Source: Sipunculus nudus (Eukaryota > Annelida > Sipuncula > Golfingiida > Sipunculidae). From it: a stretch of DNA of 64,000 nucleotides. Under the pieces are notes generated by a model, which was not told where the DNA came from, ran no database searches, and saw nothing but the letters and a program-made list of their open reading frames with translations. Location of the stretch: NCBI GenBank assembly GCA_026874595.1, contig CM049315.1, forward strand, positions 12,028,664 through 12,092,663. Direction: 5' to 3'. Of this stretch, positions 4,935 through 59,650 are shown piece by piece. Within the stretch, counting starts at the first letter, position 1; every line of letters starts with the position of its first letter. Made by a program: the position numbers and the translations under genes.

Positions 4935-6657
4935 ATTGTATCTGCCTAAATGAAGTTTTGCGGATACTATGTTTTTGACTGGGTTCCGCTGCCGCCGCCG
5001 CCGCCGCGTTCGTTTCCAGAGAACTCCTCTGAGACTACTGGATGGATTTTTCCGAAACTTACACAAATCATCGGGTCACATGTGAACTGGTGCCTAACCA
5101 AGTGACCTTGACCTCTGACCTTTCCTCTCTGCCCAGCGTCCTTTTGTGCGTCTGTTTCCACACATAAACCCACATATCTCAGGAACCGTTTGACCGATGA
5201 GGAAACATATTTTACACAAATGTAGCCCTGGGATAGCTTTATAACATCCACAAAAAAGGTGGCGCCACCTGCAACCATGTTTGCACAGTGTCCATCTGTT
5301 CATCTGCCTTGGGTTAAAATCACTCATATCTCTGCAGTGATTTGACTTATTCACCTAAAATTTGGCATGCGTATACATCCTAGATAGCTTTCTTGATTTT
5401 ATGACAGGTGGCGCCACCTACATTCACGTTAACGCTGCAGACATCCAAGCTCATATCTCGGGAACCGTTTGACCGGTCAGGAAAAAAATTTCACACAAAT
5501 GTAGCCCTTGGATAGCTTTATAACATACACAAAAATGGTGGCGCCACCTGCAGCCATTTCTGCACAGCGTCCATCTGTTTGTCTGCCTTAGGTTAAAATC
5601 ACTCGTATCTCTGCAGTGGTTTGACTAATTCACCTGAAATTCGGCATGCGTATACATCCTAGATAGCTTTCTTGATTTTATGACAGGTGGCGCCACCTAC
5701 CTTCACGTTAATGCTGCAGACATCTAAGCTCATATCTCAGGAACCGTTTGACCAATCAGGAAAAAAAATTTACACAAATGTAGCCCTTGGATAGCTTTAT
5801 AACATACACAAAAATGGTGGTGCCACCTGCAACCATGTTTGCACAGTGTCCATCTGTTCATCTGCCTTGGGTTAAAATCACTCATATCTCTGCAGTGATT
5901 TGACTTATTCACCTAAAATTTGGCATGCGTATACATCCTAGATAGCTTTCTTGATTTTATGACAGGTGGCGCCACCTACTTTCACGTTCACTCTGCAGAC
6001 AATAATGCTTATATCTCCGGACTCGTTTGACCAATCAGGAAAAAAAAAAATTACACAAATGTAGCCCTTGGGTATCTTTATAACATACACAAAAATGGTG
6101 GTACCACCGGCAGCCATTTTTGCACAGCGTCCATCTGTTTGTCTGCCTTAGGTTAAAATCACTCGTATCTCTGCAGTGGTTTGACTAATTCACCTGAAAT
6201 TCTGCATGCGTATACATCCTAGATAGCTTTCTTGATTTTATGACAGGTGGCACCACCTACTTTCACGTTCATGCTGCAGACATTAATGCTTATATCTCCG
6301 GACTCGTTTAACCAATAAGGAAAAAAAAAAATTACACAAATGTAGCCCTTGGGTATCTTTATAACATACACAAAAATGGTGGTACCACCGGGCAGCCATT
6401 TTTGCACAGCGTCCATCTGTTTGTCTGCTGTGTGATAAAATCACTCATATCTCTGCAGTGGTTTGACTTTTCCACATGAAATTTTGCATATGTATACATC
6501 TTGGATAGTTTCTTGTTCAAATAACTGGTGGTGCCACCTACAATCATGTTTATGTGATGTGTGTTTCCCCTTGCCACTCAATCCATGCCTCACTTCACCC
6601 GTCCTTCTCTGATTTTGGCGGATACACGTAGTCGCTTGTCGACTACCCGTATTCTAG
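4935..6657 (-). mobile_element. Family A element, copy A1
   Basis: Read on the minus strand, it starts CTAGAATACGGGTAGTCGAC with hairpin GTAGTCG/CGACTAC and the motif GTATCCGCCAAAA. A tandem core of ten half-units follows, then a (CGG)n microsatellite near 4988-5008, then the end hairpin with the terminus GGATACAAT (here slightly mutated). Each half-unit carries GGTGGCGCCACC or a close variant, at about 5258, 5407, 5537, 5686, 5816, 5965, 6097, 6246, 6378 and 6526. The spacing alternates at about 149 and 130 bp. It lies inside the LINE endonuclease. There is no protein of its own. Confidence 0.85.
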
Positions 6658-7047
6658 TTTAAATGTGCTTAAATCTCCCATGAAAATGTTGTTCGAGTCT
6701 GTTGTGATAGAGTCTGTGAGTATATCTGTGAATTCATCTAAGAAAACTGCGTTTGTTATTGGATTTCTAGCAGAATAAGGTGGATGATACACTGCATTTA
6801 TCATAAATGATACCTTGCTTGATGTTGTTACTTTCCATTTAACAAGATGCATGGATTGTAGCTGACGGTTTGTTTGTCTCTGAACAGCCAGGGCGGAATC
6901 GTAAATAATAGCAAGTCCCCCACCCCTGCGTTCACGGTTTACGAAGTCAACACGATAGCCGTTTTTTGTAAGTTCACTTGTTCCTAGCCATGCGTCGTCA
7001 TCTTCATTTCCAAGCCATGTTTCAGTCACTACACATATATCCGCATT
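6658..7047 (-). pseudogene. LINE endonuclease, N-terminal part (5' truncated)
   Basis: The frame reads ICVVTETWLGNEDDD, then GGLAIIYD, VYHPPYS and IFMGDL, matching the TETWL, YHPP and GDF/N motifs of APE-type LINE endonucleases. The frame is open to 7047, where the LINE ends abruptly against family C sequence, so the copy was 5'-truncated on insertion. The GDL motif sits at the edge of the family A insertion. Confidence 0.85.
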
Positions 7048-8361
7048 GAAATAATCCCAGAAACAATCTTTCTCAAGTTTGTTCGAATGGTTCTGGTTTG
7101 GTGATTTTTGGCAGAGTTATAGTTGGTTAAACTTAGTCATCTGTCCAAAATAGCATACTAAAATCAAAATCTCAGAAACGAATGGAGCTATCACCACCAA
7201 ATTTTATGCCCATGTTGGTCACATGAATCATATCTGAAATTGAGGTGTTGGTGGGGCCACCTGCATCGGCCTTTTTTGTATAGGGGTCATCAGTGCCCGT
7301 ATCATACTGAGGCTACAAAAACTTCTTCTCTGAAACCATAAGGCCATATTGTTTAATATCGCACAGAAATGATCCTAGGGTAGTGCTTTCTCAAGTTTGT
7401 TCAAATGGTCTCAGTTCAGTGACTTTTGGCCAAGTTATGGGAAGCTGAATTTAGTCAAATGCCATAACAGCCCATTTTGGCCCAGTTGCTACAAAGATCT
7501 TCTCAACAAAAACCACTGGGCCAAATTCTTAAATCTCACACATTAATTATCCTTAGATGTTGATAATTTAAGTTTGTTCAAATGGTTTTGGTTTAATTAT
7601 TTATGGCTGAGTTACGGGAAGCTGAACTTAGCCATTTTGCTGCATTTCCCTATATGAGTTATAAACCTGCAAAACGTTTTTCATATGACGCCACTGAGGC
7701 CAATTTGTGTAAAATTTTACAAGATAATCCCTACAATAGTTCGTATAACAATTGTCTTTAATAGTTCCACATGAATGATTTTTGGCTGAATTGTGGAGAT
7801 TGAATTGAGTCATTTTACCATACATATTAGCTGTGTGAAGCAGTTACATCTAGCCTGGCAGCAGTTTATCAACATCTATTACATCATGCCACTAGACATT
7901 TAGATTTCAGGTTAAATAGCTTGGCAGACTGACAACTATTTCAGATTTGGCAACAGGCAAAAGGTCAGCCTGGATCTATTTACAGCTTTGGCAGACTGGC
8001 AACTGTATCAGATTAGGCAACAGGTCAAGAGTTCACTCAGTGTAGCCAGGTATAGGTCAAAGGTTCACTCAGTCTAGCCAGGTGCAGGTCAAGAGTTCAC
8101 GCAGTGCAGTAGCTTGAGCCAGCAATTTGTCACAGTTCACTCGGGGCAACTGCCTTTCTCACCTGAGCCTGGTCAGCCCAGTTCATCGAACTCAAGGGAA
8201 GTTTGGTGTATTGGCCTGATATTTTGACCTGTCTATGCGTCATTGATGGCTTTCTCATTCACAAGACAGGTGTCACCACCTACAATGACTTTTGCACAGT
8301 GTATGTTCCTGCTTATTTCTGTGGAGGAATTTGATATATCAGCCTGAAATTGGGCATATCG

Positions 8362-12024: not shown

Positions 12025-12269
12025 TATCTCTGATAGCTTTGTTGTATACAAGACTGGTGGTGCCAGCTACAATCATTTTTGTGATGCATGCACCTATGCC
12101 AGAATTCCAGCAGTGATGTTTGTGTAATTGTTTCTTGTTATAAATTTTTAGTACTTGCATTGTTCATATACATGTTACACATGTACTTTAAAAGGAATGG
12201 TCCAGCATTGAAGCATTATACCTGGTGTATATCCGATTGCACAGGTTCGCATTGGGCCTGTAGGCCTTG

Positions 12270-18800: not shown

Positions 18801-21800
18801 TGCTCCGTGACCGTGCATGATCATCAGTTTTGGAGGAAGTTTTTGGTATATGCCTGTTGTGTGCTTTGGTGTGTTCAGGATGGCCTACTGAGGAGTTCAA
18901 ATACCCCATCTTCAGACCAGTAATGCCTGCATGCTTTGTGGCAGAAGATCTGCAAACAATTATCAAAATTGGATAATTAAGACATTAGTTTTGGGTTAAA
19001 AACATGACAAATTCTATTAGTCATCAAATTTGAAGGGAATCATTATATACTGATTTACAGTTTACTTATTAAAGGTAAGGAAAGATTAAAGTAATGATAA
19101 CAAACAACTGAGTGATGTGTTACATTTAGGGTAGAGTCTGGATCCAGGCATGAAGACAGGGATCTGGGTCCAGACAAGAGCATACAACAAGGGACCTGGA
19201 TCTGTACTTAGTGTATTATACTATTAGGGCCCCAGCTTGTTAATGTAACTACCCTTAAATCTTTGTTTGGTAACCACAGGGTCTTCACAGCAGATAATAA
19301 ATGACATTACTCAGGAGAGAGGATATTTCAACTTCCTACCAGCAAGGATATGGCCACTATACACTGCCAAGATACCTTGTTTTGCCAAGCAACTCTTGCA
19401 TCTGTTTCATGAACAATGAGCAAGCCAGTTGAAATAAACTAATGACTCACTTTTGCTTTATGTGGCACACATAGCACATATGTTGCTCATTTCAAATCAA
19501 ACATTTGCATAACGTCAAAAGGCATTGAGAATCCAGTCAAATAAAGCCTTGTAGTTGTAAGCCCATCTTGTTTCTCATACATGTGGTCTTGTGCACATGG
19601 GGTGTCAACAGTGTGTGTACTTGGTTCATTATATTTGACTGGCAGTACTTAGTGATTAAGGCCCAAATGTGTGCGGACTTTTAATTATTCATTAAAGAGA
19701 TGCCAGAATGGCTCAATGAAGCAAGGTATCTTCGCAGCATGTAGTGGCCAGATCCTTGCAAAATCCGATTTTTGATCTATCAAATTTTGATTTGGATTGA
19801 GATTGGATAAAAAATCCATAAAGTCATTGGATTTAGATTTGATAAAAAATTCATAAAGTCTTGACAGACAAGTGATTTATTGTTGCGTTCTCAGCAGATG
19901 CAAAATCTATGAATTATAAAACTATAAAATGTAACCGTAACCTAAAGAGCACCATGATTTTTAACCATAGTGACCTGTACTAAAATAGTAGAGCCACTAG
20001 TATGTCCAGATGTTGTAATTCTGCAGGTCTCTGAAGCTTACTTGACAAGACGGACATAGTTTCCAGGGAAAACACCATTTTTGCCTGTGCGGAGCTGGGT
20101 GCCCTTGAACCATCCATCCTGGCACTTCTCAGTGACAGTGTAACATTCACCCTTCACAAGCTCGACCTCATCATCCTTTTGTGGCTTGTAGTTGTACAAC
20201 GCCACATAGCTGCAAGCACCAAACACATGATAATACACAACTTGTATCAACAAAGGGCCAACCGAATAAAGCTATATGGTTGCCAAAATTTCAATAATAC
20301 AGAAAAGTTTAGTTGTGCTATAGGTCTCCAGTTGCTGTTTGTTTCTATATAAATGGGTAACATCTAATTTATCTATCAATATATATTTTTCAACTACAAT
20401 GTCTTGTCTTATTTCAACCTGCATATACCAGTTTAATGTCGAGGTAAAATTTTCACTGTATCTTAATGGTTGATCATGGTTGATCACACAAATAATGTAC
20501 ACTTTTTGGCATTAACAAGGGACCCATGGGTCACGGCGCTCAGCTGATCGTGATTGGACTATAAATGTTTCTCCACTGTGATACTATATCGAGTCGATAA
20601 GGCTTATGAAAATCATGGACATGTTGGGCTATTATAAAGGAATGTAATGTAATATGTGAGTAAATGATAAATGAAATTACCTGACTGGTGGATTAATAGA
20701 GTAAAATATAGTGGTTTATTTTTTATTTATTTAGGAGGGGTTGAAAATTGTGATATATTTGAGCAAATATGAATGCAATGACAGCAGTAATAAGCAGTAG
20801 TAGAATGATGATAAGGCTATTTGTTGAAGGATCTAAAGTGTATGGTAGTCTGCAAGCTTTCAATTTGACAGATATGATGTAATGATTATCTATGCTGATG
20901 AAGTGATTTATGAATTTGTGACTGAATGACACAATATCTCTTTAGTCTTGACAAGGTACATTATTGTGAAGCCCACTATGTCTACATATTATACAATATT
21001 GACATAATTTCTGGCATGTACATAGGTACCTATGGACGAATAGTTATACAAAATAGTAAAGTATGAATGTATCTGATTCATCTTGTTCTTGCTTACTGAG
21101 GCTGACTTTGGGATGGGGTTCGGAGAAGGGAAAAGTGAGGGCAGCACGAAGGTGGATGTAGAAATATTCTATTGTAATGTTTTTCATTTATATAAGAATA
21201 TGAACAGCTAAGAGGAAAGGGGCCCTCCTACTTGGTTATAGTAAAGTTCTAAATATATGATTGCAAACTAATACTCTGACAAGACTGTCATGAAGAAAAA
21301 CAGTAAAAGTTTTGATATACTGTGATGCATATGAAAATTTACAGATGGACAGGCAAGTGGACAGAATGGACTAATACCTTTATTTCACTTTCAATGGAAT
21401 AATGCATTTAAGTTTATATATAAGCCTATTTTTTTTAAGCATATCCACTTTTTCCATTAAGAAGTTTTTATCTGAATCATTTTTTTATTTACAGGTTTTA
21501 TAAATTTTTAATAAAAAAAAACTGGAAATATAAGTTAAAATATTAGAACTGTTGCAAAAGTTGCAATCATTATATATACAGAGTAAACAAGGCCTACAGG
21601 CCTAATGCGAACCTGTGCAAAGTTTGGGAGTATGAATGGAGGTTTATTTTTAAAATTTAATATTGATCCTCTTTAAGTCCTGCATATCTGCCTTAGTCAT
21701 TATTATTATAGCAAAATGGACATTTCTGACCTGCAAGTTTCAGACTAGGACATTTTAAAACTAGAATATGGGTAGTCGACAAGCAAATATGTGTATCCGC

Positions 21801-24800
21801 AGAAATCAGAGTGGGACGGGTGAAGTGAGGCATGGATTAAGTGGCAAGGGGAATAGAGTGAGGTGTGTTGCATATTAGCATGGATGTCTGCAGTGTAAAC
21901 TTAAATTTAGGTGGTGCCACCTGTAATAAAATCGAGGAAATTGTCCAGGATATATAAACCTGCAAAATTTCAGGTGGATAAGTCAAACCACTGCTGAGAT
22001 ATGAGTGATTTTATCCCAAGGCAGATGAAAAGATGGACGCTGTGCATAAGTGGTTGCAGGTGGCACCACCAGTTTTGCCTATGATGAAGAGCTATGTGAG
22101 ATCTATACACATGCAAAATTTTGGCCCAATTGGTCTAACGATTCCCGAGATATAAGCTTGGATGTCTGCAGAGTAAACGTGAATGTCGCTGGCGCCACCT
22201 GTCATAAAATCTAAAAGCTGTCCAGGATGTATAAACCTGCAAAATTTCAGGTAGATAATTCAAACCACTTCTGAGATATGAGTGATTTATCCGAAGGCAG
22301 ATGAACAGATGGACACTGTGCATAAATGGTTGCAGGTGGCACCACCAGTATTGCCTATGATGAAGAGCTATGTGAGATCTATACACATGCAAAATTTTGG
22401 CCCAATCGGTCAAACAGTTCCCAAGATATGAGCTTGGAAGTCTGCAGAGTAAACGTGAATGTAGGTGGCGCCACCTGTCATAAAATCGAGAAAGCTGTCC
22501 AGGATGTATAAACCTGCAAAATTTCTGGTGGATAAGTCAAACCACTGCTGAGATATGAGTGATTTTATCCCAAGGCAGATGAACAGATGGATGCTGTGCA
22601 TAAATGGTTGCAGGTGGCGCCACCAGTTTTGCCTATGAAGAAGAAATATGTGAGATCTATCATATGCAAAATTTTGGCCCAATCGGTCAAACAGTTCCCG
22701 AGATATGAGCTTAGATGTCTGTTGAGTAAACGTGAATGTAGGTGGCGCTACCTGTCATAAAATCGAGAAAGCTGTCCAGGATGTATAAACCTGCAAAATT
22801 TCAGGTGGATAAGTCAAACCACTGCTGAGATATGAGTGATTTTATCCCAAGGCAGATGAACAGAAGGATGCTGTGCATAAATGGTTGCAGGTGGCACCAC
22901 CAGTTTTGCCTATGATGAAGAGCTATGTGAGATCTATACACATGCAAAATTTTGGCCCAATTGGTCAAACAGTTCCTGAGGTATGAGCTTGGATGTCTGC
23001 AGAGTACACCTGAAAATTCTGCCAAGTGGTTATGAAGGAGTTCTCCGTAAACCTATGCGGCGATGGCAGCAGCTTTGGCGTCTGACCAAAAACATAGTAT
23101 CTGCAAAACTCTGTTTTGGCGGATACAATGATTGTAGCTGGCACCACCAGTCTTATATACAAGGAAGAGTTAAATAAATATGCCCAATGTCAGACTGATA
23201 TGTCAAAACCCTCCTGTGAAATAAGCAGGGACATACACTGTGCAATAGTTATTGTAGGTGGCGCCACCAGTCTTGTACACTATAAAGCTACCTGATATGT
23301 ATAAACATGCCCAATTTTAGGCTGATGTATCAAATTCCTCTGTAGAAATAAGCAGGTGCATACACTGCAAAAGTCAATGTAGGTGGCACCACCTGTCTTG
23401 TAAATAAGAATACCATCAAAGATGCATAGACAGGTCAAACTTCCCCAGAGTTTGATGCACTGGGCTGACAAGGCTTAGGTGAGTAAGGCAGTTGCCCCCG
23501 AGTGAACTGTGACCAATTGCTGCCTCAAGCTACTGCACTGAATGAACTCTTGACCTGCACCTACCTAGACTGAGTGAACTTTTGACCTGTACCTGGCTGC
23601 ACTGAGTGAACTCTTGACCTGTTGCATAATCTGACACAGTTGGCAGTCTGCCAAAGCTATAAATAGATTCAGGCTGAACTTGGGTGCCAAATATGATGCA
23701 GTGAGCAGTCTGCCAAAGCTATAAATAGAATGCAGCTACTGCACTGAGTGAACTCTTGACCTATACCTGGCTGCACTTCTTCCAATCCTGGCACTGTGCC
23801 AAAACTATTTATAGAGCTGACATCATCTTGGCTAATAGCCAATATCAAGGCACTGAAAATATGCCAATGGTATACCAAGTGCTGCCATCTGTACACAAAA
23901 GTGGTCCCTACTTGAAATAACTTTGAAATTTATTTTTCCAAATACAAAATGCTTTTCAGCTGACTTTTTATAAACAAGGCCTACAGGCCTAATGCGAACC
24001 TGTGCATATGGATATACACCAGGTATAACGCTTCAATGCTGAACCACTACTTTTCATATATATGAACAATGCAAGTACTAAACATCTGAACAAGAAACAA
24101 TACACAAACATCACTGCTGAAATTCTCGCATGGGTGCACACAACACAAAAATTATTGTAGGTGGCACAGTCTTGTATACAACAAAGCTATTTGACATGTA
24201 TAAATATGCCCAATTTCTGGCTGATATATCAAATTCCTCTGTAGAATTAAGCAGGCACATACACTTTGCAAAAGTCATTGCAGATGGCAACACCTGTCTT
24301 GTGAACGAGAAAGCCATTAAAGACCGTAGACAGGTCAGAATAACAGGCCAATACATCAAACTTACCTTGAGTCTGATGCATGGGGCTGACCAGGCTTAGG
24401 TGAGAAAGGCTGTTGCCCCGAGTGTACTGTGACAAATTACTGGCTCAGGCTACTGCACTGAGTGAACTCTTGACCTGCACCTGGCAAGACTGAGTGAACT
24501 TTTGACCTGTACCTGGCTGCACTGAGTGAATTCTTGACCTGTTGCAGTCTGCCAAAGCTATAAATCCAGACTGACCTTTTGCCTGTTGCCAAATCTGAAA
24601 TAGTAGCCACACAATTGCATAAGCTCACAGACTGGCTCCATATGCAGCCCTGAGGGGCATGACACCCATGTGGTGATCACATGATACTCATGATGTGATC
24701 ACATGCTACCCATGAGATGATCACATGCTGCCCATGAGGTGCTCACATGACACCCATGAGGTGATCACATGCCTTGTGCTTGGCTGCACTGATTGAACTG

Positions 24801-42800: not shown

Positions 42801-45800
42801 TTAAATATAAATATAATTTATCAATGAAAACAAAGTTTCCAATAAAGTATCATAAAGAAATATTATTTATTACAATACAATTTTTACAGCCGAGTTATTC
42901 TTTGTTAATGAAAGCACATCACTTGTCCTTCAAATGTACAACTGTTCATACATTGCACAAATCAAGAAATTACTATTCTTAAATATATATACAGAATTGA
43001 AAGCTCAACAGATACTTCTGAATAAACAGTATATTGAAGACAGGTTATACTGATCAGCAGAACAAAATCTATTACTTCTTGATGACTTTATAGGAAATAA
43101 CCTTTTTGAATAAAATATGGATATATTCCATTTTCACTTGGGTAAAACTGGACATCTGGTCATCCTCAGTTTAATTTTTGTTAATCAAAGCCGCTGTCTT
43201 CTTCCTGTGATATACTTGTGCTATCCTTCTTTTCTGTATTTAACCAGTTATAAAGCTTTTCAGTGATAAATACAAACACACAGGCTAATTTCCACTGTAT
43301 TTTAAACAGATGATTAAATGCCTTTTAGGAGGCCCTTTACTCACAATCACAATCTTGTCTAGTAAAATTTAAAGTCCCAATGGATTTCAGTGTTGAATAT
43401 GACATACACAAATACCGATTCTTTAAAGGTGTAGCATAGCCCCTCATGTCATATACCTACATGTTGTCAGTAGGGAATACCAGGAAATGATGCTAGGACC
43501 TGTTTACAGATCAGGAAAAAGCCTCGACCTATGTCAACATCTATGTCCACACAGAATCCGTGAAATGCAAAGTTCAGTATCACATTTGGAACAACAGCAG
43601 TATATGACTCAGCATTTGACAATTATGAATCAAGTTATTATATGTAATCTTATTCTTATTAATACGTAATTAAAAATAAAACCAGGATGATTATTGGTCA
43701 TCAGGACAGCAAAGAATGATGGCTGTGAGACAGACCCACAATTAGCGTTATACATGTTTATTAATAGTATTGATGATGTCTTTTCCAGGAAACAACTTTT
43801 TTATTTGTTTTGTAAAAGAGTCAATAAGTGAGAGGATTTTATCAAGGTATTCTGCTTGGTAAAGGTGACTTCATCATGGCTTTTATTTGAAATAATTTAA
43901 TTAACAATTCCTGCATGTTTTAACCAAGTAATTAGCAACAGATCTTTGATGACAGACTTGTTTTAAGTTGATTTACCACATGAATAATTGCAAAGCTTCC
44001 TTTCTCTCAGGGCTGATGACATCCTTCCTGTAAAATCTATTTTCATTTTTCATATTAATATTTGCTTTTATTCTTTATAAACTTGTTCACCCTTATCAAC
44101 TTACCTTATGGAAGGTCAGGCAGTCCTTTTCATTCTGGTCGTTAATCACGAAGTCATAAAGGGCTTTGCATATGGGAATTTCCTGCGGAAGCGGTGTAAT
44201 AACCTGGTGGAGAAAAACAGAACTAATCTTCCTTGATGTCACTTTAATCCCCTGGAGCAATGGTTATTTTTTTAATGAAACACGCAATGATTTCACACCA
44301 CAAACGGACCTGAGAAAAGCGGGCCATGACTAATTCATGAAGATAGTTATCTCAGTGTGAAATTCAAAACAGGATTTACTTCAAACCATGGTTGATTAAT
44401 AAGAGTTATTAATACCATTAATTATTAAAGTTAGCTGCTTAAAGCTTAGAAATTTTTACACTTCCTTTCCTCAAAACCACAGTTGATTAATAAAAGTAAT
44501 TAATATCATTAATTTACAAAGCTGGTTGCAAGATGCTGAGAAATTTAGATACTGCTTTGTAAGTGGTCATAACTAGAAGAGGGTGCTGAATGCCCTAAAA
44601 TAATGTAAAAATGTATGAATCAAACATAATTTATGAATATATTAAAAAAATAAATTTCCATCTTCTCTTTCAGATTATAGTCATATAATAAATTAACCTG
44701 ATATGAAGGCTGGCATGATCCACACAATTTACCTGACCTGATTTTTGGTCACATTTGCATCAAAAGAACATGTTGACATTAGGTTGTAATCTGAATGAGC
44801 CCTAATGAAATATAAATCAAAGGTCAAGGACAAAACAATCTGATGCCTAATTTAGCAGGTGTTCTATCATGTCGCCACTATTTCAAAACTAGAATACGGG
44901 TAGTCGACAAGCGACTACGTGTATCCGCCAAAATCAGAGAAGGACGGGTGAAGTGAGGCATGGATTGAGTGGCAAGGGGATACAGAGTTACATGTGTTAA
45001 ATATTAGAATGGATCTCTGCCACATAAACATGATTGTAGGTGGCGCCACCTGTTATTTGAACGAGAAACTATCCAAGATATATACACATGCAAAATTTCA
45101 TGTGGCAAAGTCAAACCACTGTAGAGATATGAGTGATTTTATCCCACAGCAGACAAACAGATGGACGCTGTGCAAAAATGGCTGCAGGTGGCGCCACCAT
45201 ATTTGTTCATGTTATAAAGCTATCCAAGGGCTACATTTGTGTAAAAAAATTTTCCTGATTGGTTGAATGAGTCTGGAGATATAAGCATGGATGTCTCGTC
45301 GTGAACGTGAATGTAGGTGGCGCCACCTGTCATAAAATCAAGAAAGCTATGCGGGATGTATAAGCATGCTGAATTTCAGGTAATTTGGTCAAACCACTGC
45401 AGAGATATGAGTGATTTTAACCAAAGACAGACAAACAGATGGACGCTGTGCAAAAATGGCTGCAGGTGGTGCCACCATTTTTTGTGTATGTTATAAAGCT
45501 ATCCAAGGGCTACATTTGTGTAAATTCTTTTTCCTGATTGGTCAAACGGTTCCCGAGATATGAGTTTGGATGTCTGCAGTGTTAACATGAATGTATGTGG
45601 CGCCACCTGTCAGAAAATCAAGAAAGCTATCTTGGATGTATAAACATGCCGAATTTTAGGTGAATTAGTCAAACCACTGCAGAGATGTGAGTGATTTTAA
45701 CCCCAGGCAGATGAACAAATGGACACTGTGCAAACATGGTTGCAGGTGGCGCCACCTTTTGTTGTGTATGTTATAAAGCTATCCAAGGGCTACATTTGTG

Positions 45801-46873
45801 TAAAAAATTTTTCCAGATCAGTCAAACGGTTCCCGAGATATATGGGTTTATGTGTGGAGTGTTAACGTGAATGTAGGTGGCGCCACCTGTCATAAAATCA
45901 AGAAAGCTATCTAGGATGTATATGCATGCCGATTTTTAGATGAATTAGTCAAACCACTGCAGAGATATGAGTGATTTTAACCCCAGGCAGATGAACAAAT
46001 GGACACTGTGCAAACATGGTTGCAGGTGGCGCCACCTTTTTTTGTGTATGTTATAAAGCTATCCCAGGGCTACATTTGTGTAAAATTTTTTTCCAGATCG
46101 GTCAAACGGTTCCCGAGATATATGTGTTTATGTGTGGAGCGTTAACGTGAATGTAGGTGGCGCCACCTGTCATAAAATCGAGAAAGCTATCTAGGATGTA
46201 TACGCATGCCAAATTTTAGGTGAATTAGTCAAACCACTGCAGAGATATGAGTGATTTTAACCCCAGGCAGATGAACAGATGGACACTGTGCAAACATGGT
46301 TGCAGGTGGGGCCACCTTTTGTTGTGTATGTTATAAAGCTATCCCAGGGCTACATTTGTGTAAAAATTTTTTCCGGATTGGTCAAACGGTTCCCGAGATA
46401 TATCGGTTTATGTGTGGAAACAGACGCACAAACGGACGCTGGGCAGAGACGAAAGGTCAGAGGTCAAGGTCACTTGGTTAGGCACCAGTTCACATGTGAC
46501 CCGATAATTTGTGTAAGTTTCGGAAAAATCTGTCCAGTAGTCTCAGAGGAGTTCTCCGGAAACGAACGCGGCGGCGGCGGAACCTGGTCAAAAACATAGT
46601 ATCCGCAAAACTTCGTTTTGGCGGATACAATCAACCTTTATCTTGTTGATACACACTGCAAAATATCCTCAAATGCTACATATACCTGCCTGTGCACAGC
46701 ATGAACAGAACAAACTTTTAAAATACCAGAAAAATGTTTAGCAAAGTTGTGCACTTACCTGTATATAACTTGCTGGGAAGAAGCCATGTTGACCATGTAG
46801 TTCACCATGGTACCAGTTCTCATCTACCTGCTTCTTCAACAATATCTGGTCCCCTTTCTTAAACGACAGGTCA
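15693..46873 (-). CDS. SH3RF1: POSH / SH3RF-type E3 ubiquitin ligase and JNK scaffold, 11 exons, 5' part missing
   Basis: Eleven minus-strand exons join without a frame conflict: 46873-46759, 44203-44105, 41177-41082, 40618-40575, 36267-35940, 30757-30699, 20209-20042, 18949-18001, 17721-17585, 17160-17032 and 15861-15693. They give 763 residues. The order is the second half of SH3-1 (1-38), SH3-2 (about 49-103), a Rac-binding-like region with KRHS and RHSME (165-193), SH3-3 (247-302), a Ser/Pro-rich linker (304-708) and SH3-4 (709-763). This is the POSH layout. Vertebrate homologues have about 840-890 residues with an N-terminal RING that ubiquitinates targets and SH3 domains that gather Rac, MLK and JNK-pathway proteins. 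The RING and first half of SH3-1 are not seen here. Introns up to 10.5 kb are filled with nested repeats. Confidence 0.93.
16073..16294 (-). repeat. 54-bp minisatellite, array 1 (POSH intron)
   Basis: Four units of 54 bp, on the minus strand, each derive from the end of the POSH exon at 17032-17160 plus its donor site. Here the donor-like site reads GTTAGT. All units stay open in the POSH frame and would encode an 18-residue repeat beginning [15 protein letters not shown]. The array is continuous with 16812-17080 once the inserted MITE is removed. Confidence 0.85.
16295..16811. mobile_element. 517-bp MITE inserted at TA inside the minisatellite
   Basis: The termini TAGTCCGTTTCA...TGAAACGGACTA are inverted repeats of about 40 bp that continue through TGTCCACCTGTTTTTTG with few mismatches. 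A TA dinucleotide flanks each side (16293-16294 and 16812-16813). Deleting the element plus one TA restores GACTACTAACTTTTCTC, an exact unit of the surrounding array. There is no coding capacity. The TA duplication suggests a Tc1/mariner-like source, which is inference. Confidence 0.85.
16812..17080 (-). repeat. 54-bp minisatellite, array 2, overlapping the POSH exon 3' end
   Basis: Five units share the segment AAACCYNTAGTCAGAGAAAA|GTGAGT (minus strand), the last being the real exon end and donor. GTGAGT-type donors lie at 17031, 16977 and 16923. The site at 16869 is mutated to ATGAGT, and the one at 16815 is altered where the MITE entered. Confidence 0.85.
17032..17160 (-). CDS. SH3RF1: POSH exon, linker before SH3-4
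   Basis: The exon is 129 bases: one base completing Arg665, 42 codons, and two bases of Lys708. It encodes [20 protein letters not shown] and ends KPKPLVREK. The HHRKxxSxDxxAVP stretch aligns with the conserved HRKASSLDSAVP segment of vertebrate POSH. The acceptor is TTTACAG before 17160 and the donor is GTGAGT at 17031-17026. The last 40 or so bases are also the first unit of the 54-bp minisatellite. Confidence 0.88.
17585..17721 (-). CDS. SH3RF1: POSH exon, basic linker
   Basis: The 137-base exon begins [20 protein letters not shown], matching the Lys-rich KKEKKGLLKLLSGASTKRK region of vertebrate homologues, then a Pro/Thr-rich stretch ending VKVDHQR. It enters in phase 0 after ACACAG and leaves two bases (AG) before the donor GTCAGT. 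The longer open frame continuing to 17494 is intron read-through. Confidence 0.88.
18001..18949 (-). CDS. SH3RF1: POSH large Ser/Pro-rich linker exon between SH3-3 and SH3-4
   Basis: This 949-base exon encodes residues 304-619. It begins [18 protein letters not shown], is rich in Ser, Pro, Asn and Asp with no globular domain, has basic-Ser clusters such as RKSHSRSSS and a proline-rich motif [10 protein letters not shown] (about 571-580) that could bind SH3 domains, and ends LPTPVPTK. The region corresponds to the long, poorly conserved linker of POSH. The acceptor is TTTGCAG, the donor is AAG|GTCAGT, and the exon ends in phase 0. Confidence 0.9.
19339..19760. repeat. Long imperfect inverted repeat (possible MITE) in a POSH intron
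   Basis: GCAAGGATATGGCCACTAT at 19341 is inverted at 19740-19760, and the similarity continues for about 80 bp on each side through GCATCTnTTTnATGAAnAAT. About 260 bp separate the arms. The size and structure fit a small TIR element or an RNA hairpin. No target duplication is clear. Confidence 0.55.
20042..20209 (-). CDS. SH3RF1: POSH exon with SH3-3
   Basis: Residues 248-302 read [20 protein letters not shown] and continue to [20 protein letters not shown] and YVRLV. This is a complete SH3 with the ALYxY, ELxxxKG, DGWFKG and FPGNYV landmarks, and matches the third SH3 of POSH, reported in the family to bind Rac and Akt-pathway partners. The acceptor is TGCTTGCAG and the donor GTAAGC. Both boundaries split codons (first base C, last bases AA) in agreement with the neighbouring exons. 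Confidence 0.95.
21761..23129 (+). mobile_element. Family A element, copy A2
   Basis: It starts CTAGAATATGGGTAGTCGAC. The core has eight half-units with GGTGGCGCCACC or variants at about 21911, 22050, 22189, 22336, 22464, 22613, 22741 and 22890. It ends with the conserved segment GAGTTCTCCG, a GGCGATGG remnant of the CGG tract, and the hairpin GTATCTGC...GGCGGATACAAT at 23129. It lies inside C2. Confidence 0.85.
23975..26974 (+). mobile_element. Family C element, copy C3, nested in C2
   Basis: The left end CAAGGCCTACAGGCCTAATG and right end CACAGGTTTGCTAAAAA are both present. The core has two parts. The left part has ~120-125-bp half-units with degraded GGTGGCRCCACC. The right part has four units of ~180-200 bp marked CTTCCCATAACT and TTGGCCCAGTGGTTTTTGA (about 25880-26350), then one exact GGTGGCGCCACC at 26507. 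The homologous sequence at 32560-32590 in C4 is the unoccupied site. Confidence 0.82.
24645..24775 (+). repeat. ~29-bp tandem repeat inside C3
   Basis: Four to five units of CCATGAGGTGATCACATG type, each with the palindrome TGATCA, occur only in this C copy. Confidence 0.7.
28985..29000 (+). repeat. Poly(G) run of 16
   Basis: This homopolymer run lies inside D2. Its length is unreliable in most sequencing data. Confidence 0.9.
30699..30757 (-). CDS. SH3RF1: POSH 59-base microexon before SH3-3
   Basis: This exon is required by phase: the exon at 35940-36267 ends in phase 0 while the SH3-3 exon starts with one leftover base, so an exon of 3n+2 bases must lie between. At 30757 a TTTCATTACAG acceptor opens 59 bases encoding [19 protein letters not shown] plus AT, closed by the strong donor GTAAGTG. 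Joining AT to C gives Ile247 and leads directly into YVALYNY, as in the homologous VYVAIYPY of vertebrates. It lies in about 1 kb of single-copy sequence between D2 and C4. Confidence 0.85.
33488..35418 (+). mobile_element. Family D element, copy D3, with a different core
   Basis: The termini are those of family D: TGACCCATGGGTCATGACG followed by GCTCAGCTGA on the left, and AGCTCAGATGACTTACAGTC plus AGCTGAGCTAAAAA on the right. The core is not the 680-bp unit of D1, D2 and D4. It consists of about four units of 334-385 bp, marked ATCAATATGTATGCC at 34051, 34397, 34731 and 35116. They carry GGTGGCGCCACC at 34689 and 35073. The insertion split an A-run of C4 (GTACAA / GGCTGATGC). Confidence 0.82.
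34136..34150 (+). repeat. Poly(G) run of 15
   Basis: This homopolymer lies inside the D3 core. In sister units the same position carries only 4-6 G. Confidence 0.9.
35940..36267 (-). CDS. SH3RF1: POSH exon, Rac-binding-like linker after SH3-2
   Basis: This exon is 328 bases: one base completing Ser118 and 109 codons (119-227). It begins [18 protein letters not shown], contains [11 protein letters not shown] (164-174) and [10 protein letters not shown] (187-196), and ends SFQASQQ. The two RHS motifs align with KKRHSFTSLTM and NRHSMEI of vertebrate POSH, where the first is a basophilic-kinase (Akt) site in the Rac-binding region. That function here is inference from the family. The acceptor is TGTTTCAG and the donor CAG|GTATGCC. 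Confidence 0.9.
37169..38992 (+). repeat. 29-bp minisatellite, about 63 copies (POSH intron)
   Basis: The unit is ACATCAGTATTATTAGATAT plus CAGATGTAG, repeated head to tail without spacers over 1.82 kb. Variants occur at a few positions only (TATTATT, TAGTATT or TATAATT; CAGATG or CAAATG). Nearly every unit carries GATATC. Two or three runs of identical variants suggest recent block duplications. No spacer sequence exists, so this is not CRISPR-like. Confidence 0.97.
38993..40574. other. POSH intron, no feature recognised
   Basis: The sequence looks single-copy and AT-rich. Short minus-strand frames such as 39983-40192 show no conserved motif and lack exon-like splice pairing. Confidence 0.4.
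40575..40618 (-). CDS. SH3RF1: POSH 44-base exon after SH3-2
   Basis: The exon encodes [14 protein letters not shown] plus two bases of Ser118. It matches FNSAAKQLIEWDK directly after SH3-2 of vertebrate POSH. The acceptor is TGTTTACAG, the donor is AAAAG|GTATTT, and it enters in phase 0. Confidence 0.9.
41082..41177 (-). CDS. SH3RF1: POSH exon, second half of SH3-2
   Basis: The 96-base exon encodes [20 protein letters not shown] followed by [12 protein letters not shown], residues 72-103. It supplies the DDNW and IFPxxFV landmarks of SH3-2. Both boundaries are phase 0: acceptor TAACTTCAG and donor GTAAGT. Confidence 0.95.
41767..41970 (-). repeat. 21-bp minisatellite, ~10 copies (POSH intron)
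   Basis: Units of TTTTGGGGCAGACTTGATAA type repeat every 21 bp, with a 63-bp higher-order pattern in the middle. They read as seven-residue repeats on the minus strand, giving two overlapping frames that are not genes. Confidence 0.85.
41971..44104. other. POSH intron, no feature recognised
   Basis: This is single-copy, AT-rich sequence. No SH3, RING or other coding motif is seen on either strand. Confidence 0.4.
44105..44203 (-). CDS. SH3RF1: POSH exon, linker and first half of SH3-2
   Basis: The 99-base exon encodes [20 protein letters not shown] and continues [13 protein letters not shown], residues 39-71. KPLPQxPPQCKALYDF is the vertebrate equivalent. It brings the ALYDF motif of SH3-2 and joins in phase 0 to DEVITVIRR. 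The acceptor is TCTCCACCAG and the donor AAG|GTAAGT. Confidence 0.95.
44889..46631 (+). mobile_element. Family A element, copy A3 (best-preserved)
   Basis: The left end CTAGAATACGGGTAGTCGAC has stem GTAGTCG/CGACTAC and the motif GTATCCGCCAAAA. The core has ten half-units with the palindrome at about 45039, 45187, 45316, 45466, 45597, 45745, 45876, 46025, 46156 and 46306, seven of them exact. The right part has GAGGTCAAGGTCACTTGG, GAGTTCTCCGGA, (CGG)4 and the hairpin GTATCCGC-AAAACTTCGTTTT-GGCGGATAC followed by AAT. It lies in the POSH intron between the first two visible exons. Confidence 0.88.
46759..46873 (-). CDS. SH3RF1: POSH exon, second half of SH3-1 (first exon seen)
   Basis: Residues 1-38 begin [20 protein letters not shown] and end [10 protein letters not shown] after YHGELHGQ. 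It matches [24 protein letters not shown] of POSH SH3-1. The acceptor is TCTTCTTGCAG, and the first base completes a codon begun in an upstream exon that must also carry the ALYxY half of the domain. The donor is CAG|GTAAGT. Confidence 0.95.
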
Positions 46874-52099: not shown

Positions 52100-52440
52100 A
52101 CACACACTGGAACTAGAAATGTTCATCCTAATGGATACATGCCTCCACCATGGGGGCAAAAGGTTTAAAAAACGCTCTGCAAACACACTTGGCATTCCAC
52201 TGTGACCTGAACAGGTGGCTGGGCCACACTGATGAAGTGGGACCTTCTGTGCATTCACTTATATTTACCCATATTATGAGGTTCATGCATGCATAAGTGG
52301 CTGTGCATTGGTGAATATTCCTTGATAATGAGGGATCTGGAGAAGATGCTGGATTAACATCAAAATCTAACTGATTTTTCCTTGGTAAATTCCCAAAATT
52401 CTCTGAAAAATTCATGAGTGTCCATTAATGATTGTGTGAT
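52100..52440 (-). repeat. Dispersed repeat, related to 62060-62240
   Basis: On the minus strand the segment runs from ACTCATGAATTTTTCAG through AAGGAATATTCACCAATG to ATAAGTGAATGCA. The plus-strand segment at 62075-62255 follows the same order of blocks. The conceptual translations share a motif MxFSxxFxNxxxKNxxDFxV and SRNIHxCxxTYA, but there is no start-to-stop gene. It is an interspersed repeat of unknown class. Confidence 0.6.
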
Positions 52441-53900: not shown

Positions 53901-56200
53901 CTAGACATTTCTTGGCACCGCAGGTGCCAGAGTATCCCCAGACATAGTAGGCCCCCCCCCCCCCTTTAAGAACAGGCCCCAAATTTTGGCAGCATATATT
54001 GTTTCTTCCATCTAACAATCCACAATCTTGTTGAAGATGTTGGTCCTGTGACCTTGATTGTTTTAAAGATGTGTCCTGTGACCTTGACCTTTGACCTCAT
54101 GACCCCAAAATCAATTTGGGTCTTGCTTTTCCAATGGGACATATGCAAGTCAAGTTTGAAATCTATACATCAATAAAGCAGGAATTATCATCCAGAAACT
54201 AATTTTTGGACAGATGGCTCCTGTGACCTTCACCTTTGACCTTGTGACCTCAAAATTGATAGTGTTCTTCCTCTCTTGGCAGGTGAACTATATGTGCAAG
54301 ATGAAAGATCTGAGATGAATTGTTTGGCTGAAAATGCATCCACAATCTTTATAAAGAGATTTCCTGTGACCTTGACCTTTGACCTCATGACCCCAAAATA
54401 AATTTGGGTCTTGCTTTTCCAATGGGACATATACAAGTCAAGTTTGAAATCCATACATGAATAAAAGCAGGAATTATCATCCAGAAACTAATTTTTGGAT
54501 AGATGGCTCCTGTGACCTTCACCTTTGACCTTGTGACCTCAAATTCCATAGGAGTCTTCCACTCTTGGCAGGTGAACTATATGTGCAAGATGAAAGATCT
54601 CATATGAATTTTTTGGCTGAAATTGCATCCACAACCTTTTTAAAGAGGTTTCCTGTGACCTTGACCTTTGACCTCATGACCCCAAAATCCATTCGGGTCT
54701 TGCTTTTCCAATGGGTCAAATACAAGTCAAGTTTGAAATCCGTACATCAATTAAAGAAGGAATTATCATCAAGAAACTAATTTTTGGACAGATAGCTCCT
54801 GTGGCCTTGACCTTTGACCTTGTGACCCCAAAATTTATATGGATTATCCACTATTGGCAAGTGAGCTATATATTCAAGAGGGAAGACCTGGGATGAAAGT
54901 TTGGCTTAAAATGCATCCACATCTTTTTAAAGATGTGTCCTGTGACCTTGACCTTTGACCTCATGACCCCAAAATCAATTTGGGTCTTGCTTTTCCAATG
55001 GGACATATACAAGTCAAGTTTGAAATCCATACATCAATAAAAGCAGGAATTATCATCCAGAAACTAATTTTTGGACAGATGGCTCCTGTGACCTTCACCT
55101 TTGACCTTGTGACCTCAAAATTGATAGGGGTTTTCCACTCTTGGCAGGTGAACTATATGTGCAAGATGAAAGCTCTGAGATGAAATGTTTGGCTGAAAAT
55201 GCATCCACAATCTTTTTAAAGAGATTTCCTGTGACCTTGACCTTTGACCTCATGACCCCAAAATCAATTCCGGTCTTGCTTTTCCAATGGGTCAAATACA
55301 AGTCAAGTTTGAAATCCATACATCAATAAAAGAAGGAATTATCATCCAGAAACTAATTTTTGGACAGATAGCTCCTCTGGCCTTGACCTTTGACCTTGTG
55401 ACCCCAAAATGTATATGGATCATCCACTATTGGCAAGTGAGCTATATATTCAAGATGAAAGACCTGGGATGAAAGTTTGGCTTAAAATGCATCCACAGTA
55501 TATATTAAAATGCCAGTCCAGTGACCTTGACCTTTGACCTCATGACCCTAGAACCTATAGGGTTCTTACTTTAGTGGTGGGCCATACATAAGTCATGTTT
55601 GAAATCCATATGGCTATCAACACTGGAGATATCATAAGAGGTGTGTGATTTTCACCATATATGGCAATATTCAAGGTCAAGGCCACTATCATAGGAAAGG
55701 TCATGACCCCAATGTAAATAAACATCATCCCATAACCCATACCTATGTATATGCATAATATAAAAGAAATCTGTCCATTAGTTTTTGACTTATAATGCTC
55801 ACAGTACTGTAAGGTGGCAATTTTGGGGGTATTAAATGGCATGAAAACAAGTAAAGAATAATAGGTGGCGCCACCAGTTTCTGGAACATGACAACCCTAT
55901 CCATGATCTTCCATCAACTTGATTTTGGGATAAATCCATGCAAGATTTCTTGAGATATTAAAGAATTTGTGTTATTTTCCCCAAAATTGGACCTATTCAA
56001 GGTCAAGGACACTCTCCTAGTAAAGGTCATGACCTCATTTTAAATAGGCGTCGTCCTCTTACCCATATCTATACATATACTAAGTTTGGTATAGTTCCAT
56101 GAAATATTTTTTGGGTTATTGCGCCAACAAGATTTATATGCGGCGGCGGAGGGACCGGTATGAAAACATAGTATCCCCCGACTTTGTCTGGGGATACAAT
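53901..56200 (+). mobile_element. Family B element
   Basis: It starts CTAGACATTTCTTGGCACCG with hairpin GGCACC/GGTGCC and the motif GTATCCCCAGACA (53932-53944). The core has six units of about 288 bp, each with two half-units, marked TGACCTTGACCTTTGACCTC at intervals of 287-290 bp from 54091 to 55534. One GGTGGCGCCACC is at 55864. The right end carries GCGGCGGCGG, AAAACATAGTATCC and a hairpin with TGTCTGGGGATAC, the exact inverse of the left motif, then AAT. The terminal layout equals family A although the core differs. Confidence 0.85.
53952..53964 (+). repeat. Poly(C) run of 13
   Basis: This homopolymer lies just inside the left end of the family B element. Confidence 0.9.
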
Positions 56201-57553
56201 TAAATTTCTGGAACCATCTGTTGGTTCATTAGAAATACAAAGGTTCTAAAAACTTGTAACATCTAATAATGTTGATGTATTTTTTTCTGATAGGATAAAG
56301 CAGCAGTTTCAATAAATATAATGTAAAGCATGATCAAAGGGTACACAACAGAAACTTTAGTGATTTTCTCAGCGTGTCCTGTTTATTTCCTAACAGGCCC
56401 TAATCATGAAAGTTTTCATTCATTCATTGAAGATTTTAAGCTATGGTAGCAGACCCCTGTTGAATGCAACCATGGAGGCACTTTCTCGGCTTTCACATTT
56501 CCTTTTAGCCACTAAAATGTAATGTACAGTGATCTGTATCTAACAAATCTTATTCCCTGAGGGTATAAGAGCTTTGTGATATTTTTAACTGCACGATGAT
56601 CCCCAATTATTGGATCACCAGCGTTTCTGACTATAATTATGTCTGAAGACCCAAAAGAGAAGTAATATCATGCCAGGCTCGCCAGGGCAGCATGACGGTA
56701 ATGAGAAATAATGGGGAAAACAGGAAAGAACCAAGTCTGATAATGGATAGAAAACATTTGTACGTGAGCCAGTAATCATGCCTATGGTGGAAAATGATGA
56801 TCGGGTCTCTACACCGATCACCTTCAACTGAGCAAAACACGGAGTGCTTAAGTCCCATGGGCATACTGACTGTCATGCTGGGAACGCTTTTATTTCAATT
56901 TGATGCCAATATGGCTCCTGATACAACTAATTGGATGATGACTTGAAAAGGCATTTCATTTGGATTGTTCACCTTAATAGCCCCAAAAAGCCAGGCCACG
57001 CTCTGTATGTAAGATGATCCATTTAAAAAAAAAATCTACTTCTGACCTGGAGCTCATGCTGAGATATCCAATGATTCGCTGCACTTGATTTCAAATGGAC
57101 CATTTAAGACCAGCACAGAAGGCTTTACTGTTAAAAAGAATGACTGCATGTGACTGCAAGACAGCCAGTGAAAGGTGAAATGTGGAAACAGTGGTAATGA
57201 ACAGTCAAAGGGGTTTCACTTTCCAAATTTCCTAATTATCTTGTGCAGAAATTTAAAAAGCTAAAACTGTAATGCTTAATTACCATGACTTTCAGATGGC
57301 ATATGTATGCTTACTATAAAATTTTATACACACATGATTTTACACAACTATACTTATTTTCATATTTTCATTTACATTCTTGAGTTTAACAGAGTTGACA
57401 AATTTAAATTTTGTTACCATACATTTGAAAGTGAATCAGTGACCATAAAAAAAATCTTAAGACGTGGTCTAAACTCTAGATTCCTCTTGCACTGACTTTA
57501 AACAAAATATGCCATGACCTGAAATGTAACACGGGTTTCATCATAATTTAAAA
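56201..57553. other. No gene recognised
   Basis: The sequence between B and D4 looks single-copy. The part 56580-56900 is less AT-rich than its surroundings. Its open frames (56615-56876, minus) have no known motif. Confidence 0.35.
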
Positions 57554-58487
57554 CAAGGGACCCATGGGTCACTGTGCTAAGCTGAAGTTGACCTTGAAGG
57601 TAAAAATCTAAAATATTATCAAATGGTGATAAAGTGTAAGAGGAAGAGGTAATATAGGCCATGGTTGGTTTATATGATCGGTTTGTACTGATGAGCAAGA
57701 AATTGTTGCAAATAATATTTTGTGACCTGACCATGTGTTTCCAAATGTTGAAACTGAAGCATGTGAGCAGTTTGTGAAAAAATGATCTGTACTATTACTA
57801 AGATCATTAGTTGGCTTTTTAATTAACTGTTTTTTTCTATATATTATTAAGTATATATGTATTTTTTTATGAAATGTATACAGTTGAAATATAACTAATA
57901 AACAACATACATACAGGGCAAACAAAGCCTGATCTCCAATTCTGCTGAGGCAGGAAAATAATGAACAAATGTTTGTATTAAATCCTCATTTTTTTATCAC
58001 ATCAATTTTTTTTTATTATAAGTTTATATTTTTATTCATTTCCAATGTAACATATATATCTGAATATAAAAGTTGATTAATAATTCTCAATTGCATCATC
58101 ATAAATCTCAATCCTGTTAAATAATACCACATCATGCATACAAATACTTATTTATTTTTTACCACAAAAATATATCTTTTAAATCTGCATAAAAAAAAAT
58201 AAATATCTTAAAATAATACTTGATTTAGATTTCACAATTTTAAATTGTGTCTTTATTTATCCATAATGTGCTTCATATTTTATGAATTTAAGCATACTTG
58301 TGGGTAATTATATCTGTTAAAATCATTTAATAGAAAATTGATTTCTGTAAAAATGCTACATTAACACAACATGGCATCTTCTGGATTACACCTTGAATTA
58401 CTTTTTCAAGGAAAGTTTTTGTATATTGGAGTGGAAACAGCACAACGATTAAGGAGATACAGTGAAAACAATAACAACTAGAATACG

Positions 58488-59650
58488 GATAGTCAACCAG
58501 CGACTACATGTATCTGCCAAAATCAGAGTGGAATGGTTGAAGTGAGGCATGGATTGAGTGGCAAGAGGAAATAGAGTGTGGTGTGTTGCATAATATCATG
58601 GATGTCTGCAGCCGAAATGTGTATGTAGGTGCACCACCTGTCATAAAATCACGAAAGCTATCCAAGATGTCTAAATATGCAAAATTTTAGGCAGAGAAGT
58701 CAAACCACTGCAAAGATATGAGTGATTTTACCATGGCAGACAAACAGACGGACGCTGTGCAAAAATGGTTGGAGGTGGCAGCACCATTTTTTCCTATGAT
58801 AAAGAGCTATGTGAGATCTATACACATGCAAAATTTTAGCCCAATCGGTCAAACAGTTCCCAAGATACAAGCCTTGATGTCTGCAGCATAAACATAAAAG
58901 TAGGTGGCGCCACCTGCCAAAAAATCGAGAAGGCTATCCAAGATGTATAAACATGCAAAATTTTGGGCAGGTAAGTCAAACCATTGCAAACATATAAGGG
59001 ATTTTATTCCATGGCAGACAAACAGACGGACGCTGTGCAAAAATTGTTGCAGGTGGCGCCACCAGTTTTGCCTATGATAAAGAGCTATGTGAGATCTATA
59101 CACATGCAAAATTTTGGCCCAATCAGTCAAACGGTTCCAGAGTTATGAGCTTGGATGTCTGCAGCGTAAACGTGAATGTAGGTGGCGCCACCTGTCATAA
59201 AATCAAGATAGCTGTCCAGGATGTTAACACATGCAAAACTTCAGGTGGATAAGTCCAACCAATCCAGAGATATGAGTTATTTTATCCCAAGGCAGATGAA
59301 CAGATGGACGCTGTGCAAAAATGGTTGCAGGTGGTGCACCATTTTTATGTATGTTATAAAGCTATCCAAGGGCTACATTTGTGCAAAAATTTTTTCTGAT
59401 CGGTCAAACGGTTCCCGAGATATGTGGGTTAATGTGTCAAAACAGATGCACAGATGGATGCAGAGAGCAGAGGAAAGGTCAGAGGTCAAAACGAAATCGG
59501 GGCGCAGCAGTTCACATGTGGCCCAAATATAATCCTTGGTTTCGTAAAATTCCACATAGCGATTACGGAGGAGTTCTCCGGACACCTACGCGGCAGCAGC
59601 GGTGGCCTGAAAACATAGTATCTGCAAAACTCTGTTTTGGCGGAAACAAT
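58488..59650 (+). mobile_element. Family A element, copy A4
   Basis: It starts CTAGAATACGGATAGTCAAC (hairpin partly decayed). Six half-units follow, with exact GGTGGCGCCACC at 58903, 59052 and 59181. It ends with GAGTTCTCCG, a CGGCAGCAGCGG tract and the hairpin ending GGCGGAAACAAT at 59650. It lies inside D4. Confidence 0.85.

Follow-up and report, generated by a model that had tools for sequence, protein, structure and literature searches.

A constant 12-base palindrome in the satellite-like cores of Helentron-like elements of Sipunculus nudus

A 64,000-nucleotide stretch of the genome of Sipunculus nudus (contig CM049315.1, positions 12,028,664 to 12,092,663; called the window below) holds 23 exact copies of the perfect 12-base palindrome GGTGGCGCCACC, set in the tandem cores of repeats which look, by their ends and layout, like non-autonomous Helitron/Helentron elements. 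Within these cores, the palindrome is what stays invariant, and of the explanations weighed we tentatively consider the most likely one to be that it is a dyad-symmetric protein site aiding rolling-circle propagation. The box A-GGTGGCGCCACC-W would be recognised as double-stranded DNA by a protein that helps the element propagate by rolling-circle transposition, the candidate binder being the Helentron Rep/helicase or a partner recruited by it. The box would be repeated several times per element, much in the manner of iterons. We infer all three parts of this: that a protein binds, which protein it is, and that its binding helps transposition. The box need not be essential to transposition, because the gene-bearing copies that were read are without it.

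To our knowledge, the reason why relatives of Helentrons carry satellite-like central repeats is an open question. A constant core box with fewer inherited, and not fewer private, changes is a concrete candidate for a cis signal, and such a signal would go some way to accounting for the seeding of satellite DNA by transposons in genomes of this kind.

Copy number of the palindrome and relatedness of the cores

A sequence-only reading of this DNA had counted at least 23 exact copies and proposed a genome-wide count of the 12-mer as a check. The window contains exactly 23, and the maximum in 100 dinucleotide shuffles of it was 0. With 15 further copies at one mismatch and 11 at two, the number at up to two mismatches is 49. 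In the assembly (1,426,538,692 bases, 153 contigs), the exact palindrome occurs 111,729 times and the same letters in reversed order 14 times; the shuffles and this control rule out a chance origin. The density is about 1 per 12.8 kb genome-wide versus 1 per 2.8 kb in the window. Since 8 of 20 unselected places hold at least one copy at up to two mismatches, the copies are dispersed. The form with a free centre, GGTGGNNCCACC, is found 169,977 times (control 614), in 158,045 cases with a pyrimidine-purine centre. A CpG centre is kept in 65.7% of intact-arm copies genome-wide, and TG or CA centres, the products of single-step decay, make up 45,683 by subtraction. A symmetric swap of the centre from CG to TA was considered and is rare, with 633 cases.

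We clustered 156 palindrome contexts from the window and 40 further loci (L001-L040) into 24 clusters (cl), 12 of which have at least two members. Their flanks were compared with the palindrome left out and with unmerged consensi, as the refined consensi of clusters 0-5 had partly merged A with C sites, inflating z for cl1-cl3 to 29; seven lone contexts (clusters 16, 17 and 19-23) were omitted from an earlier flank comparison. The half-units of element A (cl0, cl1), the core of element C (cl3), cl6 and cl7 group together, with z of 14.2 for cl1-cl7, 10.4 for cl1-cl3 (right flank) and 6.5 for cl0-cl1. Core monomers of A and C align by blastn at 67-70% identity over 167-223 bp and are, on these alignments, homologous. 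The core of element D (cl2) joins cl10 (z 12.0), cl5 joins cl9 (z 17.6), and cl10 joins both cl5 and cl9 (z 5.7 each), which suggests a weak link between the D and cl5 cores. Cluster cl9 is weakly similar to cl6 (z 6.1) and cl3 (z 4.9). A single weak left-flank match, to cl0 (z 4.5), was obtained for cl4, and cl11 has no flank match to other clusters above z 3.0. The carriers had been described as unrelated families, or else as descendants of a shared ancient monomer. The ends of A, C and D do differ, as the first description holds, whereas the homology of the A and C cores goes against it; a shared monomer applies to A and C, weakly to D and cl5, and is not shown for cl4 and cl11. The ragged left flanks of cl4 were also considered as an alternative terminus, an idea dropped as the same left flank continues in 9 of 14 printed copies.

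Conservation of the box and the fate of its variants

Between five core groups, the flanks retain a background identity of 0.33, whereas the palindrome columns range from 0.80 to 1.00; two of the families compared have only 2 and 3 sites. The A directly before the palindrome is identical in all five (1.00), so that A-GGTGGCGCCACC is constant as a whole. As the palindrome itself served to find the core groups, the ascertainment is biased in its favour. The preceding A lay outside the 12-mer used for finding the contexts, and this base and the within-family tests are less dependent on the ascertainment.

Within families, sites were collected with palindrome-masked queries from the window and loci L001-L049, clusters 8, 14 and 15 not serving as queries. 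The search returned 173 sites, of which 155 are gapless at the palindrome. Loci L001-L020 had been chosen for holding the palindrome, and results were also computed without them. Gaps shifted some near-intact palindromes by one base (for example at window position 46031), and because such a shift misreads them, gapped rows were dropped from the later tests; some of the dropped rows are true deletions. In the gapless rows, filtered on their flanks alone and after removal of families with fewer than 6 sites, the palindrome arms are conserved at 0.955 versus 0.882 for the flanks (128 sites, 27 loci; confidence interval (CI) of the difference +0.049 to +0.088). None of 67 outside 12-column windows is better conserved than the palindrome. 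Without the palindrome-selected loci, the values are 0.948 and 0.878 (77 sites, 9 loci).

Changes private to one copy and changes inherited by several behave differently. They were compared in a small sample of 7 families, from which gapped rows, and families with fewer than 6 rows after filtering, had been removed. In the arms, 26 of 1,070 cells (0.0243) carry a private change, and in the flanks 276 of 9,028 (0.0306; p=0.30). Columns with an inherited variant number 9 of 70 in the arms versus 153 of 604 in the flanks (p=0.018), and those with an inherited variant in at least two loci 7 of 70 versus 137 of 604 (p=0.013). When the selected loci are omitted, which leaves 3 families, inherited-variant columns number 4 of 30 versus 84 of 262 (p=0.036), and the rates of private changes are 0.0260 and 0.0281. 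Since inherited changes are fewer and private ones are not, the constraint seems to act on the lineages that multiply, and settled copies decay about like their neighbours.

A propagation signal would be expected to leave this pattern, whereas a host site maintained at every locus would not. The proposal of a constrained site thus holds in part: the palindrome is constant between groups whose flanks have decayed and has fewer inherited variants, whereas its private variants are not reduced. The accompanying suggestion of a nucleosome or chromatin signal is spoken against by the same data, as settled copies appear unprotected, changing privately at about the flank rate. A site bound in the arrays by nucleosomes, a centromere protein or another chromatin protein would fit the monomer spacings of 127-149 bp, which are near nucleosome length; given the undiminished private changes and the dispersal of the copies, we regard it as very improbable.

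Possible recognition of the box, Rep/helicase genes and nearby insertions

A palindrome could also act as a single-strand hairpin or in RNA, as a rolling-circle terminator or a ribozyme. Element A does have a 7-bp hairpin at its real 3' end, as in Helitrons, ending 11 nt before the terminus, and its fold is the clearer one (z -1.78; 10 of 200 shuffles are as good). The core palindrome, in contrast, is loop-free, and six core contexts, folded as single strands, gave weak structures (z -0.55 to +0.95). No complementary double change of the arms occurs among 149 sites, 6 of the 155 gapless sites with more than 4 mismatches having been left out of the count. TA centres are found 633 times versus 4,670 expected if both steps were independent, a deficit that could also arise from CpG decay alone. 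A Rfam scan of the window at gathering scores returned no match, and hence none to the hammerhead motif that marks ribozyme-bearing retrozymes. Hairpin and RNA or ribozyme roles are therefore unsupported and in our estimate barely probable. The weak folds and the lack of compensatory changes favour, as we infer, recognition of double-stranded DNA by a protein.

Possible autonomous partners of the elements were sought among Rep/helicase genes. The genome has 143 Helitron_like_N matches, and 8 of these places were read (5 at 9.9 kb and 3 at 3.4-3.6 kb). The partial open reading frames of L045-L049, cut at the 5' side (1,558-1,937 aa as cut), all carry Helitron_like_N and PIF1 domains above the cut-off; an endonuclease domain is above it in three of the five and below it in a fourth. 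The frames also contain DUF6570, and L045 and L046 an OTU protease domain. Two of the five loci have a D-type 3' end beyond the frame, on its downstream side and correctly oriented. In L048 it is located about 1.0 kb away (gene end 4203, D-type end 3181-3212), with 0 mismatches in the 11 bases of the 3' subterminal inverted repeat (subTIR), and in L049 about 1.4 kb away (gene end 4674, D-type end 6062-6092), with 1 mismatch. Five such D-type ends on either strand in 20 unselected 5-kb loci put the probability that a gene has a correctly oriented D-type end within 1.5 kb by chance at about 4%. Neither C nor A ends were found at the gene borders read, and at L045-L047 the side covered by the reading, 3' of the gene, is free of A, C and D ends. 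The palindromes in L169, the piece read upstream of the L048 gene, are those of an A element at about 2328-2930. The L048 gene also contains tandem 63-bp coding repeats, visible as near-matches at 63-base steps.

Several results weigh against a constrained site that serves propagation. With gapped rows kept, conservation is 0.887 in the arms versus 0.862 in the flanks (164 sites), a difference of +0.025 with a CI of -0.008 to +0.044. A first count in unselected loci gave 0.868 versus 0.857 (43 sites, without an interval), and in the earliest count the arms of D were below their flanks and those of cl4 equal to them. Gapless rows from unselected loci alone show a small excess, 0.921 versus 0.888 (33 sites, 8 loci; CI +0.012 to +0.053), and there 13 of the 67 outside windows are better conserved than the palindrome. 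Without the selected loci, columns with variants inherited in at least two loci number 3 of 30 versus 62 of 262 (p=0.11). The lack of complementary double changes leaves the function of the dyad unproven. The 289-bp units of a further repeat, the B array, hold no palindrome at up to two mismatches. At the genes, pieces L169 and L170 contain no D-type 5' end upstream of L048 and L049; the palindrome is absent from both loci at up to two mismatches and from the interval between gene and D-type end at up to three. The D match thus concerns one end, and each of the two genes could just happen to be a neighbour of a D element. An essential Rep site becomes less plausible with the box absent from the gene-bearing copies read: the machinery apparently dispenses with the box, which may serve only non-autonomous copies. 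The sequence-only reading had made its constrained site depend on the palindrome being kept better than its neighbours, and on this the outcome is mixed, with gapless rows in agreement, slightly so in unselected loci, and gapped rows, D and cl4 in disagreement.

A rival account is shared ancestry alone, in which all cores derive from one ancestral monomer and the palindrome is its last recognisable, functionless piece. The homology of the A and C cores (blastn; cl1-cl3 z 10.4), the weak links between others (cl5-cl9 17.6, cl2-cl10 12.0, cl9-cl6 6.1, cl10-cl5 5.7), the finding of the core groups through the palindrome and the gene-bearing copies without the box are all consistent with it. However, a constant segment amid flanks at 33% identity has evolved more slowly than they have, and its inherited variants are fewer. 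The flank-only search found 17 of 173 sites with at least 6 mismatches in the palindrome, 11 of them gapped there and the other 6 mutually different, and no amplified palindrome-free subfamily was seen in this 173-site sample. We consider descent alone possible, if rather unlikely, and prefer the protein site.

Other elements are often inserted directly beside the palindrome. Counting along the display direction, we found 214 C-type ends with a palindrome 0-30 bp further on and 16 with one at 31-61 bp; for D-type ends the numbers are 1,892 and 157. Both types are thus 12-13 times commoner adjoining the palindrome than at 31-61 bp from it. The A-runs flanking 93 sampled palindromes predict a ratio of about 433:252; the C-type excess over this expectation has a p of 5e-26, with distances defined slightly differently in the two counts. 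The spacer from the invaded A-run to the palindrome is 0-4 bp long in 69 of 100 listed C cases. Ten hand-picked short-spacer C insertions are 70-91% alike in their longest matches and differ in length; in 6 of the 10 a left end can be recognised, preceded by D-like sequence and giving lengths of 1.4 to 2.8 kb. They are mostly different events, although those at L161 and L165 may be one. Of the D cases listed, many have the same string in between and could go back to the amplification of a single composite. The palindrome (with a CG, CA, TG or TA centre) is present at 24 of the first 100 C insertions listed for AAAAATACA, versus 12.5% of all AAAAATACA sites (18,741 of 149,678; p=0.0012, assuming independence). 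Most of the preference is thus accounted for by the A-run, with a further effect of about two-fold from the palindrome.

These insertions could mean that the palindrome with its A/T run is a landing site, or an internal mimic of the element's 3' terminus, that lets elements nest and extend their cores. The near excess and the mostly separate C events agree with this, whereas the two-fold effect beyond the A-run and the possible single D composite diminish it, and we find it doubtful as the main explanation. The core box (palindrome, spacer and T-run) appears to resemble the 3' ends of C and D. In a related and likewise distinctly unlikely scenario, core monomers would be internal copies or mimics of the Helentron 3' terminus, recognised by Rep, which would both keep the palindrome constant and direct landings beside it. 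In this way, elements would assemble their satellite-like cores themselves, exchange them and lengthen them. The string AAAAATACA also recurs every ~167-168 bp in a separate satellite array at C1:145904-149923 of the assembly (G000).

Carrier elements in the window and similar known systems

The carriers share the architecture of HINE elements, with subTIRs, a palindrome at the end, a tandem core and insertion into oligo-A/T. The A, C and D repeats in the window have sharp ends. Element A, read against the display direction of the tandem cores, runs 5'-TTGTATCCGCCAAAAC...TTTTGGCGGATACACGTAGTCGcttgtCGACTACCCGTATTCTAG-3' and has a 14-bp subterminal inverted repeat. It starts with 5'TT (TTGTATCC), unlike canonical Helitrons with their 5'-TC, and ends with CTAG, the hairpin described above being on this 3' side. 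We found 10 left and 8 right ends. Element A is inserted at A^T, as where it interrupts C between ACAAAAA and TGATT. Proto-Helentrons are marked by the combination of 5'TT, 3'CTAG and A^T insertion. The core of element A is a tandem array of two-monomer units (~280 bp).

Four copies were delimited, with strands giving the inferred real direction from 5'TT to 3'CTAG. The proto-Helentron-like A1 (4935..6659, plus strand; from ends and homology) contains five exact palindromes within 5258..5976 (starting at 5258, 5407, 5537, 5686 and 5965). A2 (21759..23129, minus; ends and homology) is located inside C-type sequence and has two within 22464..22624 (22464 and 22613). A3, with both ends (44887..46631, minus; ends), has seven within 45039..46167 (45039, 45187, 45316, 45745, 45876, 46025 and 46156), and A4 (58476..59650, minus; ends) three within 58903..59192 (58903, 59052 and 59181).

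The subTIRs of C (GCGAACCTGTG) and D (GCTCAGCTGAC) match at 11 of 11 bases in the window copies, a length within the ~11-15 bp of HINE elements. Both element types have a short GTCC/GTCG-rich stretch at one end, a palindrome at the other and A-rich flanks outside. Near the real 3' end, this palindrome is AGGCCTGTAGGCCT in C and TGACCCATGGGTCA in D, or a variant (9 C and 18 D ends listed), and the single fold computed for that of D is weak (z -0.83). A C-type element (31516..35894, minus; ends) is interrupted in an oligo-A run by a D-type element (33489..35417, minus; ends), and a palindrome copy with one mismatch, at 35429, is ~10 bp away from the D insertion. The D insertion produced no target duplication in this single empty-site comparison (GTAC-AAAAAA-GGC empty, AAA/AAA filled). 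The D core of ~335-bp monomers holds two exact palindromes within 34689..35085 (34689 and 35074). Further C-type termini of uncertain pairing, on the minus strand, span 21586..28370 (starts 21586 and 23973, ends 26974 and 28370). A C-type left array of 127-bp monomers has an exact palindrome at 23257..23268, and C-type right parts, of cluster cl4, at 26507..26518 and 27894..27905. Positions given by the sequence-only reading were right except for two off by one (27893 and 35073 for 27894 and 35074). It had also placed one copy in B; this exact palindrome, of cl5 type, is present at 55864..55875, outside the B array (54061-55610; 289-bp units with TGACCTTGACCTTTGACC) and to its right. Repeats of 32 bp (CTGCACTGAGTGAACTCTTGACCTGTACCTGG or similar) at 23533-23622, 24453-24542 and 32136-32225 lie beside C-type left arrays and are possibly part of C.

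HINE elements (Cg_HINE of oyster, DINE-1 of Drosophila) are non-autonomous Helentrons with satellite-like central repeats; the oyster architecture has been described, with divergent monomers alike in 'two motifs' (PMC7492417). The Sipunculus elements are like them in the 11-bp subTIRs, the inverted repeat, the GTCC/GTCG-rich stretch, the tandem central repeats, the end palindrome and the oligo-T preference without target duplication, and differ in that one 12-bp palindrome is common to the cores of several families with different ends. A proto-Helentron of Phytophthora has 5'TT, 3'CTAG, A^T insertion and a 3' hairpin called typical of Helitrons (PMC4067079). Element A shares all four features and differs in being non-autonomous, with its ~280-bp two-monomer tandem core. 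The rolling-circle transposition terminator of Helraiser is a 3' hairpin palindrome (PMC4778049), a single terminal stem-loop, whereas the palindrome described here is loop-free, internal and repeated.

The BIV160/Cg170 and pearl-type repeats of bivalves and the palindromes of DTC84 and phBglII400 involve monomers that are satellite-like and contain either conserved motifs or a palindrome, and Helitron-like elements carry some repeats of this sort (PMC5139131); compared by description and not by letters, the resemblance is a lead only. Already in print are the satellite-like central repeats of HINE elements, their conserved motifs and palindromes near repeat junctions (PMC7492417, PMC8268682, PMC5139131). 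In the literature searched, as text without figures and supplements, we found no description of the box, of one palindrome across differently ended families or of the split between inherited and private changes; the letters of the 12-mer matched in a paper on a bacterial chitinase. Of 109 outside stretches (59 viral ones with the 15-mer, 50 from prokaryotes with the 17-letter pattern), none aligns to four core right flanks (best score 30 of 136), and we read them as chance matches in mostly G+C-rich DNA.

Elsewhere in the window, a minisatellite at 37170-38993 consists of 62.9 copies of the 29-bp unit ACATCAGTATTATTAGATATCAGATGTAG at 95% match. Three minus-strand frames occupy 2601-4664; a reverse-transcriptase domain (RVT_1) is encoded by the one in the middle, at 3221-3895. 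A1 starts just past these frames, at 4935.

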